Origin: Nitrospira sp. SB0677_bin_15
GTDB lineage: Bacteria > Nitrospirota > Nitrospiria > Nitrospirales > UBA8639
Reading direction: 5' to 3'
Assembly: GCA_009842645.1 (NCBI GenBank)
Contig: VYFB01000122.1
Span: 1 to 33,719, forward strand
Length of the DNA stretch: 33,719 nt
The stretch's first letter is position 1. The number at the start of each line of letters is the position of its first letter. Both the position numbers and the translations under genes were made by a program. Below, in pieces: positions 5,732 through 31,888 of the stretch. Under the pieces are notes generated by a model that had not been told where the DNA came from, ran no database searches, and saw nothing but the letters and a program-made list of their open reading frames with translations.

Positions 5732-5841
5732 GAATGCCTGTCAGTTAATAACCTCCTCGCCCCTTGAGACTTGTCTTTTATCTTTCTCTGTCATCTTCGA
5801 CATCTTTAATCGAGGATCCAGTACCTTTTGTCTTTTCTTAA

Positions 5842-5879
5842 CCCCCTCGCCACTTGAGGGAGAGGGCAGGGGTGAGGGG
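5842..5879. repeat. Dispersed fold-back repeat, second copy
   Basis: C-rich arm, ACTTGAGGGAGAGGG and the tail GGGGTGAGGGG resemble the element at 51-90. About 25 bases further, CCCTGAGTTTGTCGAA (near 5900) resembles another widespread intergenic repeat motif. From about 5740 to 6010 I see repeats and no gene. Confidence 0.55.
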
Positions 5880-6315: not shown

Positions 6316-6463
6316 AAAGAACTCCGTCTCCAGACGACTCCGAATCGGTCCACAACGTTCATGGGCCCGACAAACCGCTCTGAATATAAGCTTGCTTCCG
6401 CTCTTCGTCAAGCCAATGTATAGGTCCAACACCCTCAAGGGGCGAGGGAGTAAAAGACACTGG

Positions 6464-6484
6464 CTCCCCGATCGGGGTCGGGGA
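6464..6484. repeat. Palindromic CCCCGATCGGGG repeat, copy 1
   Basis: CTCCCCGATCGGGG followed by TCGGGGA. The 12-base core CCCCGATCGGGG is a perfect palindrome and the outer bases allow an alternative longer stem. A near-identical copy lies at 7894-7919. The two copies flank the GAF-GAF-ANTAR gene. Confidence 0.7.
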
Positions 6485-6524
6485 TGGCAGGAGGAAAAAA
6501 GGTGGAAACAATATTTGTTGTTCC

Positions 6525-7852: not shown

Positions 7853-7893
7853 GGAAGATGCGGCAGCCACAACCACAAAAAACAAAGACTCTG

Positions 7894-7952
7894 GATCCCC
7901 GATCGGGGTCGGGGATGACAACAAGGAGATTCATCGCTACGCTCAGAACGAC
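7894..7952. repeat. Compound repeat: CCCCGATCGGGG palindrome plus REP-like arm
   Basis: 7894-7919 is a second copy of the CCCCGATCGGGG palindrome (compare 6464-6484). 7926-7952, read in reverse, is GTCGTTCTGAGCGTAGCGA followed by TGAATCTC, matching the glnD-start repeat arm at 3657-3684 at most positions. On the minus strand the palindrome is followed by a T-rich stretch, so it may end transcription after aroB. Nothing gene-like is seen between 7815 and 8017. Confidence 0.65.
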
Positions 7953-18203: not shown

Positions 18204-18229
18204 GCCGTCGCTCTCTTGATAATATGTTG

Positions 18230-18373
18230 AGGAACCTCTGATTTACTGCACTATCGGGCGCAGGGCTACGTTGTGTCCTCGCTCAACCCTCACCTATCTC
18301 CATGATAAGCTTCGGGTTTCGCTCCGGGACGCCTTGCCCGGCATCCCGCTATCACAATAACTCAGAGGTTCCT
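18230..18373. repeat. MITE-like inverted-repeat element between rpoA and rplQ
   Basis: The perfect 12-base inverted termini AGGAACCTCTGA (18230-18241) and TCAGAGGTTCCT (18362-18373) enclose about 120 bases. Similarity extends inward (TTA, TG and a CGGG-containing stretch on both sides). The right terminus touches the rpoA stop codon (18373-18375). No transposase is encoded. The size, inverted ends and insertion in an otherwise compact operon suggest a non-autonomous element. The ends recall those of some IS5-type elements, but I cannot verify that. No clear target duplication is seen. Confidence 0.65.
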
Positions 18374-19368
18374 TAATGCGATTGGTTGTTGGTCTGCACC
18401 AGGTTTTCTCGTCTAAGCCCCAAGCTCAACCCCATTTCAGCCAACACTTCCTTGATTTCATTGAGAGATTTTTTTCCGAAATTTTTGGTTTTCAGCATCT
18501 CGATTTCCGTCTTCTGCACGAGATCTTCAATCGTCTTGATATTCGCATTTTTCAGACAATTCGCCGCACGCACGGACAGTTCCAGTTCATTGACGCTTCG
18601 AGCCAAATGTTTGTCCAATTCGGCTTGTGTTTCCTCGTACGCGGAATCATGCTCCACTTCTTTCATTTCCTCGCTGGGAATGCAAATCGCCAAATGTTCG
18701 CGAAGGATGGAAGCCGATGAGGAAACGGCTTCTTGTGGGGTAATACTTCCGTCGGTCCAAATCTCAAGATTCAATTTGTCATAATCGGTCACGCGACCGA
18801 CCCGAGCATTTTCCACGTGAAAGTTCACGCGCTTGATCGGGGAAAAAATCGAGTCGACAGGGATAACGCCAATGGGCAACCCTTCTTCTTTATTGCGTTC
18901 CGCAGGTACGTACCCGCGACCCGGTTTGACGATCAACTCTATGTCGAGCATCCCGTCTTTGTCCAACGTCGCGATATGCAGTTCCGGATTCAAGATGGTG
19001 ATATCCGCGTCATGCTGAATATCGGCTGCACTGACTTCACCCGGCCCTTTCTTCTTTAACCGCATCGCCTTTGATTTGTCGGTATGCAGCTTCAGCCGAA
19101 GATTCTTGACGTTCAAGATGATAATGGTCACGTCTTCCGCAACACCGGGAAGGGTGGAAAATTCATGAAACGCCCCTTCGATCTTGACGGAGGTCACAGC
19201 CGCCCCGGTTAACGAAGACAGCAACACGCGTCGCAGGGAATTCCCAACCGTAGTCCCAAACCCGCGTTCAAAGGGCTCTGCCGTAAACTTTCCATAGGTA
19301 GGCGAAGCTGTTTCTTTTTCCAATTCCAGTCGCATCGGCAACTGAAAATCCTTGATCCCTTTGTTCAT
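18373..19368 (-). CDS. rpoA: DNA-directed RNA polymerase subunit alpha
   Basis: Scaffold subunit that nucleates polymerase assembly and contacts UP elements. 331 residues from ATG at 19368, which has GGGAG just upstream (the in-frame codon at 19383 lacks this). The N-terminal domain shows [20 protein letters not shown]; the C-terminal domain shows [14 protein letters not shown] and [10 protein letters not shown]. It stands between rpsD and rplQ as in the standard alpha operon. Confidence 0.98.
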
Positions 19369-19440
19369 TGCGCTCCCTTTCACCTCAATCTGTCATAGCC
19401 GAGATATCGACTCACGTCCGGCTCGCCAACGTGTTTCCTC

Positions 19441-30578: not shown

Positions 30579-31406
30579 CTATTTCGTCCGCCTGGAGATA
30601 ATGAATTTCGACGACTGCTTCTTCTTCCGGGTCTTGAAGCCTTTCGTCGGAACCCCCCAAGGAGAAACGGGATGAGGGTTGCCCTGTCCGGACTTCCCTT
30701 CGCCGCCACCATGCGGATGATCCACCGGATTCATCACGACACCCCGGACGTGAGGCCGCTTTCCCATCCACCTCGAACGACCGGCCTTGCCCACCGAAAC
30801 GTTCTCGTGATCGAGGTTCCCGATTTGTCCCACGGTCGCCATACACGTGCCCAGGATCCGACGCATCTCACCCGAAACCAGACGGACCTGAACGTATTGA
30901 CCTTCCCTGCCCATCACCTGACACGACGCGCCGGCACTCCGCGCCACCTGGGCACCCTTCCCCGGCTTGAGTTCAATGTTATGAATGGTCGTGCCAAGCG
31001 GCATCAACGACAAAGGAAGCGCATTGCCCGGACGAATGTCCGAGCCGGGACCAGCCTGAATCGGGTCTCCAACCGACAAGCCGACGGGAGCCAGGATATA
31101 TCGCTTATCCCCGTCTGCATACGTGATCAATGCGATACGAGCCGAACGATTAGGATCGTACTCCACCCTGACGACTTTACCAGGCACCCCGATTTTATTT
31201 CGCTTGAAATCGATGACGCGGTACAAACGCTTATGCCCGCCGCCACGAAATCTCGTCGTAATTCGCCCGAAATTGTTTCGTCCGCCGGAGCGAGACAGAG
31301 ACGCAGTCAGGCTTTTTTCAGGCTGCTCTTTCGACAACGTCTTGTCCTTGATAACCGTCATGCCGCGCCGGCCCGGCGACGTCGGACGATAGGGTTTAGT
31401 CGGCAT
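30579..31406 (-). CDS. rplB: 50S ribosomal protein L2
   Basis: Large-subunit protein needed for subunit joining and peptidyl transferase. 275 residues from ATG at 31406, which has GGGAGG eight bases upstream; the open frame reaches 31478 but the extra codons lie in repeat-derived sequence. [19 protein letters not shown] and the signature [20 protein letters not shown] are present. Confidence 0.97.
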
Positions 31407-31468
31407 AACGTGCGCCTCCCTTTTTCTTAATCTCAATCCACGTAACAGAACCCACCTCTTTGCAGGCA

Positions 31469-31588
31469 ACACGTTCAAAAATGTCGTCCAGCAAGGCCGC
31501 AGGTCCGTTGGCGCGCGCAGCGTACGTGAAAGTACGTGAGCACGACAAGGGACCGAGAACGCCGCTGGCGGCGTTTTTCAACGTGCTG
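31469..31588. repeat. Inverted-repeat element between rplW and rplB
   Basis: Termini ACACGTTCAAAAA (31469-31481) and TTTTTCAACGTGC (31574-31586) are inverted and match at 11 of 13 positions. Inside is a perfect 8-bp hairpin AACGCCGC/GCGGCGTT (31558-31575) that, read on the plus strand, is followed by T residues, and TACGTGAAAGTACGTGA (31522-31538), a direct repeat. The right end stops at the rplW stop codon (31589-31591). I recall similar peptides (SSKAAGP...AAYVKVREH) as spurious translations in Nitrospira genomes, which suggests a dispersed element; this is unverified. Confidence 0.6.
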
Positions 31589-31888
31589 CTAGGCGCTTTC
31601 ATACAACTCCACCTTTTCGCCTTCATGCAAAGTGATGATGGCTTTTTTCCAGTCAGCCCGTTTCCCAAGATAGCGTCCCTGTCGTTTCTTTTTGCCCATG
31701 ACGTTCATGATATTGACGGACTTCACTTTGACTTTGAGCACGGACTCCACCGCCTGACGAACCTCGATTCGATTCACGTCGTTCTGCACGACAAAGGCGA
31801 TACGGTTGGCGGCCTCCTGAAGCCCCGTGATTTTTTCAGTCAATAACGGCTTCACCAACACGTCATAGGGATCGCGCTTCATGCCCAT
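31589..31888 (-). CDS. rplW: 50S ribosomal protein L23
   Basis: Docking site for trigger factor and SRP at the tunnel exit. 99 residues with DPYDVLVKPLLTEKITGLQE, ANRIAFVVQNDVNRIEVRQA and VESVLKVKVKSVNIMNVMGK. ATG at 31888 has GAGGA upstream and overlaps the rplD end by 10 bases. A gap of 182 bases to rplB is unusual for the S10 operon and holds the inverted-repeat element. Confidence 0.97.
   Translation of the reverse strand: MGMKRDPYDVLVKPLLTEKITGLQEAANRIAFVVQNDVNRIEVRQAVESVLKVKVKSVNIMNVMGKKKRQGRYLGKRADWKKAIITLHEGEKVELYESA

Follow-up and report, generated by a model that had tools for sequence, protein, structure and literature searches.

The window analysed here, a stretch of 33,719 nt from Nitrospira sp. 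SB0677_bin_15 (contig VYFB01000122.1), carries rplW and rplB of the S10 operon on its minus strand. As the preliminary description had it, 182 bases separate the two genes, which is borne out by the coordinates of the rplW stop codon TAG (31589-31591) and of the rplB ATG (31404-31406), both on the minus strand; the gene names are those of NCBIfam. The gap is occupied by an inverted-repeat element (Table 1), across which the host operon must be transcribed. Read on the minus strand, positions 31464-31591 match positions 1-128 of our covariance model R1, built from 74 cores of related elements, with 132.9 bits, and the last three plus-strand bases of this core are the rplW stop codon. By the same model, this is the only place in the window that holds an element of the family, and it is matched on both strands.

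Table 1. Features of the element in the rplW-rplB gap and its host genes (window positions)
Feature	Positions	Strand	Remarks
rplW (L23)	31589..31888	-	upstream host gene in transcription; name from NCBIfam
rplB (L2)	30579..31406	-	downstream host gene in transcription; name from NCBIfam
Conserved hairpin core	31464..31591	- (as the host operon transcribes)	model R1 match; one long hairpin
Right terminal inverted repeat CAGCACGTTGAAAAA, C-type end	31574..31588	-	
CTAG, YTAR-type target holding the rplW stop TAG	31589..31592	-	
Inner-left arm, pairs with the right end	31466..31486	+	helix 1
Hairpin tip CGTAC...GTACG, source of the direct repeat	31521..31536	+	helix 5
Compact perfect 8-bp hairpin, then T-run	31558..31575	+	without entry in the terminator scan
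Left-extension remnant, outer-left end lost	31446..31463		boundary inferred by eye from complete copies and congener gaps

Other repeats were seen elsewhere in the window. One, at 18227-18376, is a different inverted-repeat element without an R1 match, whose 32-nt arms are 78% complementary and enclose 86 nt. It reaches the stop codon of the gene at 18373-19383, identified as rpoA by NCBIfam, and it is perhaps the one that the preliminary description counted as the first such element. Two pairs of direct repeats of 37 to 40 nt lie at 49-88 and 5840-5879 (85% identical) and at 6453-6489 and 7884-7920 (92% identical).

The inverted ends that had been described as imperfect are present, as arms of 21 nt with 81% complementarity (31466-31486 and 31569-31589), and so is the perfect 8-bp GC hairpin (31558-31565 and 31568-31575), which runs into a T-run on the plus strand. 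The direct repeat GTACGTGA at 31522 and 31532 exists as well but makes better sense as the paired sides of a long hairpin's tip. Indeed, both strands of 31464-31591 are predicted to fold into a single long hairpin, at -62.9 kcal/mol (z -5.3) for the transcribed strand and -67.0 kcal/mol (z -5.9) for the opposite one, and on either strand none of 200 shuffled sequences was as stable. The transcribed direction had been said to lack a U-run; this is correct for the bases behind the compact hairpin but not for the outer stem, which has five consecutive U (ATTTTTG). The element ends at the rplW stop, as described: its end repeat extends to 31588, which adjoins the stop codon and is, in the transcribed direction, the first base after it. 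By contrast, the proposed bounds of 31469-31588 could not be kept, since complete members of the family extend further to the left. The window copy has lost that end; it keeps the right end only and shows no visible target duplication. No promoters were found in it.

The suggestion that this is a repeated element held true: it has copies in other places, and relatives have empty sites. A single-copy element is ruled out by the many copies in relatives. In its own genome, blastn (E <= 0.01) found one further relative, 72% identical over 110 bases and located in the gap that separates the nuoD stop codon from the following gene (L002 1492-1619, contig C62), so that blastn gives two places there against three matches of the model. 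Among this genome and 40 relatives, 34 of the 41 have blastn matches and 36 have R1 matches, with up to 78 (G019), 65 (G015) and 54 (G021) in sister genera and none in G017 and G018; these R1 counts may include some places twice, once per strand, as happens with the window copy. A phylum sample that included the window's own genome gave R1 matches in 61 of 148 genomes, distributed over several families of one phylum, some of them beyond the window's class. This phylum includes the main nitrite oxidisers and the comammox bacteria. R1 matches, 12 to 60 per genome, are present in each of five named Nitrospira-group genomes (L013-L016, L029), of which three carry the label Nitrospira sp., one Nitrospiraceae and one Nitrospirae. 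At E <= 0.001 none was found in 11 other named genomes, two of which (L053, L058) are labelled Nitrospirota or Nitrospirae and nine of which are from other phyla. Rfam gave no match at gathering score for the window and six loci, and at 31300-31700 there were weak sub-threshold matches only. Judged by title and beginning of abstract, the literature matches listed included no description of the family, subscription journals being mostly outside this search.

Alignments within genomes showed that a full element consists of a poorly conserved left extension of about 67 bp followed by the 128-bp core. Like MITEs, the complete copies are short (183-286 bp, most about 190 bp), non-coding and numerous, and they carry terminal inverted repeats, of which the window copy retains the right one. 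Read inward, the outer ends are GGGNNTGTTGAA in G016, G019 and G021 and CAGGNTGTTGAAAAA in G015 and G022. These patterns outnumber their reversed forms (GGGNNTGTTGAA, 135 against 7 in G019 and 50 against 12 in G016; CAGGNTGTTGAAAAA, 98 against 0 in G015 and 19 against 0 in G022). The window end CAGCACGTTGAAAAA corresponds in place and form to the CAGGNTGTTGAAAAA ends of G015/G022 and the GGGNNTGTTGAA ends of G016/G019, and it is of the CAGGNTGTTGAAAAA type (C-type).

Target site duplication, a further hallmark of MITEs, was found for the copies with GGG-type ends (G-type). Of the 43 distinct complete elements of this type, 23 have an exact 5-bp duplication at their flanks, and in 30 the flanks match in at least four of the five bases. 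When the flanks were shuffled 1000 times, exact duplications averaged 0.75 and never exceeded 5, and other offsets (-3 to +3) gave at most 2. The C-type ends follow a different target. Among 48 distinct ends from the examined G015/G022 loci (117 pattern matches in all), YTAR precedes 35 and TAR precedes 37. Two C-type copies (L243, L249) have the non-palindromic direct repeat CTAA on both sides, and several others have mismatched flanks. A 4-bp duplication in C-type copies is thus likely, although the evidence is only suggestive. Taken together, the element at 31464-31591 belongs to a MITE-like family and is truncated on its left side.

In a search for an autonomous partner, none of the DDE_Tnp_1 (PF01609) and DUF772 (PF05598) genes of six genomes was bounded by family ends; at L259, a single end-like GGGCGTGTTGAA lies far before a transposase match and has no partner end. 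In G016 and G019, 40 stretches surrounding singleton ends contained short copies but no convincing autonomous element, and the sole kilobase-sized pair with a 4-bp match starts where a complete 286-bp copy ends.

Some copies are mosaics in which the left arm has been swapped for another repeat (TCGCCTGCGCGAAGCCGC...; L156, L234, L246, L248, L249 and others, in G015 and G022), so the family appears to recombine with other repeats or to be invaded by them. Four loci of G015 (L313, L323, L329, L335) have CAGGNTGTTGAAAAA ends around different interiors, and elements with these ends seem to represent a group of families with common ends.

We next consider where the elements lie relative to genes. 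We used 117 distinct places, with genes called as longest open reading frames and with some copies being fragments with ill-defined ends; eight loci orthologous to the own-genome copies, six duplicate loci, copies with N runs and repeats of one right flank had been set aside. The right end faces the 3' end of a gene in 61 of these places, and in 34 of the 61 the stop codon lies within -4 to +8 of a reference base located 3 nt past the right end repeat, which for the window copy is 31591. Where the right end faces the 5' end of a gene, the start codon lies in this interval in 4 of 43 places. For 49 complete elements, counted from the end repeat itself, a facing stop codon lies within -6 to +8 of the right end in 8 of 18 cases and of the left end in 1 of 22 (Fisher p 0.0055); both intervals had been set after a first look at the distances.

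Stop codons at the right ends could have been made by the element truncating its neighbours. This was ruled out for the ten docked neighbours tested, out of 16 listed. All ten are real proteins, nine with a family match that ends at most 7 positions from the end of the profile and the tenth, MutS-like, with a match that ends 15 positions before it. Since these matches reach or nearly reach the profile ends, the stop codons of the ten neighbours are native rather than element-made. The nuoD stop that immediately precedes the element varies among species, being TAA, TAG or TGA. At rplW, the encoded C-terminus is ...YESA* in each of the 30 genomes inspected (of 37 with an RplW match), whether the element is present or absent, and the TAG stop also occurs in congeners without the element. 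The end of the RplW protein is unaltered by the insertion.

These places also bear on the proposal, made in the preliminary description, that the compact hairpin acts in the opposite orientation as a terminator against antisense transcripts. The GC hairpin followed by the plus-strand T-run is what suggested it, and equal occurrence of both orientations in operons was named there as evidence against it. Where the flanking genes are co-directional, they run against the element's plus direction in 35 places and with it in 30 (another five places, within a long open frame, were left unclassed). This balance is the outcome that had been named as refuting the proposal, which is not supported; in those 30 places both neighbours have the plus strand as their sense strand. 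In addition, the terminator scan gave no site on either strand, although the compact GC stem and T-run that mark an intrinsic terminator are present. We consider such a role very improbable.

Fourteen genomes of the genus allowed us to trace the history of the rplW copy. The element is present behind rplW in six (the window's own genome G000, and G003, G005, G006, G010 and G011) and absent from eight. In a tree of rplD, rplW and rplB (FastTree), the six form one clade with G001, G007, G012 and G013 (support 1.0), and G004, G002, G008 and G009 fall outside; support falls to about 0.1 at some nodes within the tree, among them G001-G013 and G007-G010. By parsimony on this tree, the distribution would most simply reflect one entry before the ten-species split, followed by at least three losses. 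In G007, 16 bases of the right end remain behind the rplW stop codon, probably the stub of a deleted element. The outer-left end is missing in all six rplW copies, and a remnant of the left extension can be aligned in five of them (that of G005 is shorter and aligns poorly). This common loss, together with the alignable remnant, favors one insertion event.

We then compared the divergence of the core with that of four-fold degenerate sites from three neighbouring genes. Among G000, G005 and G010, the core differs by 8-10%, compared with 33-37% at four-fold sites (Fisher p 3e-8 to 3e-9) and 30-39% in the rest of the gap. The core lies below four-fold divergence in all 15 rplW pairs, and in pairs with four-fold divergence above 0.3 it has changed about 2 to 4 times more slowly, except in G003-G006 and G005-G006 (1.7 to 1.8 times). 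The core of G006 is less conserved (16-21%) and has lost the hairpin tip; in G003-G006, the core (21%) has diverged as far as the rest of the gap (22%). Fisher tests were made for six of the 15 rplW pairs, and for G000-G003 the difference between core and four-fold sites was not significant (p 0.3). The nuo copy, which has the same orientation as the rplW copy, has orthologues in G011, G012, G013 and G004. Tested in four of the five genomes with this copy, all but G012, it is slower than four-fold sites at p < 0.01 in five of six pairs (G013-G004, 5 of 123 against 13 of 43, p 1.6e-5) and not significantly so in G000-G013 (p 0.85). The pairs have branches in common and do not amount to independent tests, and divergence could also have been lowered by conversion between copies. 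As judged from the distant pairs, in which the core has also retained its base pairing, the window copy appears to have changed unusually little since its arrival.

This bears on the simplest alternative, namely, that the element is a plain selfish relic, a MITE copy in a harmless place without any effect on the host, whose slow change would come from renewed insertion into one YTAR target or from conversion by other copies. MITEs are usually intergenic (PMC10969869), and four of the ten clade species do without the element, in line with such a relic, as is the lack of strand preference among its mismatches (see below). Against it stand the shared loss of the outer-left end and the remnant that can be aligned in five copies, which point to one event, and also the divergence of the core, which is below that of four-fold sites in 15 of 15 rplW pairs and, for nuo, in five of six pairs at p < 0.01. 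We regard this alternative as a serious possibility, although one that falls short of an even chance.

The core shows marked compensatory change. Of 133 extracted cores, 82 were kept, and the 74 distinct ones aligned have standard pairs in 90.5% of the cells of 45 pairs. In 27 of the 45, both sides have changed, which none of 500 shuffles achieved; changes on both sides occur in 348 cells against 122.5 by shuffling, and slid registers gave far lower values. Coevolving transposon ends could explain covarying arms alone, but the inner stems covary as well as the outer arms. The internal loops, GTTCTCG opposite CTGCG, are nearly invariant. So is a G facing a G (C facing C on the complementary strand) at columns 13 and 123 of alignment A1, which in the outer stem stands between GTT/AAC and the A5/T5 run. 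Mismatches on the transcribed strand comprise 134 G-U and 103 A-C, or 93 and 103 without one mostly U-G pair. These counts give no preference for either strand and do not favour a role as RNA, and an RNA acting on one preferred strand was rejected. A constraint on a DNA hairpin, or one that applies to both strands, would explain the balance no less well than an RNA role.

These data are relevant to a second alternative, in which a structured RNA came first: the 128-bp core would be a selected RNA module behind stop codons, and the transposon its vehicle. In its favor are the covariation around nearly invariant loop motifs, the conservation of the core within genomes next to a left extension that is not conserved, its presence in several families of the phylum and partly outside the window's class, and the docking of its right end at stop codons. 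Against this, the mismatches show no preferred strand, the overall orientation is balanced and Rfam has no match. We consider it unlikely. A related but distinct proposal is that the core has become a domesticated module at stop codons, kept in the S10 and nuo operons, where it might tune termination, recycling or cleavage. It would draw on the nearly invariant loops, the spread by transposition through much of the phylum and the right end docked at native stops, and we put it forward tentatively, with considerable doubt.

A long imperfect hairpin with conserved unpaired features is also reminiscent of other mobile elements, namely, integron attC sites or REPs moved by RAYT/IS200-type enzymes. 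Integron attC sites have boxes of the form RYYYAAC...GTTRRRY and are used by an integrase; in alignment A1, the order GTT...AAC is the reverse. For RAYT/IS200 elements, a 5-bp target duplication such as the one found here is not expected, and REPs, as palindromes of 20-40 bp linked to a RAYT gene, differ from the element in size and ends. Either origin is highly unlikely.

We favor, as the probable explanation, that an old member of a MITE-like family, mobilised in trans and since truncated on its left side, lies at 31464-31591, that it entered a target containing the stop codon, and that it has a mild, local effect as a hairpin in the mRNA. The element would have been moved by a DDE-type transposase. 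The YTAR target can contain the stop codons TAG and TAA, and duplication of a target with the stop codon in it would have spared the protein. In the S10 transcript, the hairpin would form directly behind the rplW stop codon and act locally, with no stop of transcription; it may slow termination or recycling of ribosomes on rplW, or be cut by RNase III between rplW and rplB, or both. By analogy, an effect like that of REPs or Correia elements, the closest precedents, is likely for such a hairpin behind a stop codon. A mild effect of this kind could keep the core conserved while leaving the element dispensable.

A target that contains a stop codon would let a mobile element enter essential operons with the protein unchanged, and it would place a strong hairpin within reach of terminating ribosomes. 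Close species differ naturally in whether the rplW site is filled, and their nuoD copies follow three different stop codons, which makes an effect of such a hairpin on expression directly testable.

Several known repeats resemble this family in part. The Correia elements (NEMIS) of Neisseria are also short inverted-repeat elements in many copies, with forms of 107 and 155 bp; their transcripts are reported to form RNA hairpins and to be cleaved by RNase III (PMC10969869; PMC2229807). However, promoters are reported for Correia elements and none was found in the window copy, and most Correia ends have TA (PMC2229807), whereas here the targets are 5 bp or YTAR-type and the phylum is another. The enterobacterial ERIC (RU-1, 127 bp) and YPAL (RU-2, 168 bp) are mobile repeats (PMC2759123) of a similar kind, likened here by description rather than by sequence comparison, and in Yersinia, transcript levels are changed by ERIC copies located at the 3' ends of genes (PMC10969869). 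Unlike in our family, the inverted repeats of YPAL are internal and its duplications range from 3 to 26 bp (PMC2229807). QMITE2 of Coxiella burnetii (150-190 bp, with variable direct repeats) lies mainly in 3' untranslated and intergenic regions, and in one example a stop codon directly precedes the element, as it does here; it differs in having direct repeats of 7-11 nt and an internal GTAG REP (PMC5896051). Finally, E. coli REPs at most 15 nt from a stop codon, about 11% of those predicted, are reported to stall ribosomes and lower translation (PMC12306157). The element behind rplW shares with them a hairpin within this distance of the stop codon, but REPs measure 20-40 bp (PMC3733652), compared to 128-190 bp for the present family, whose hairpin lies directly behind the stop.
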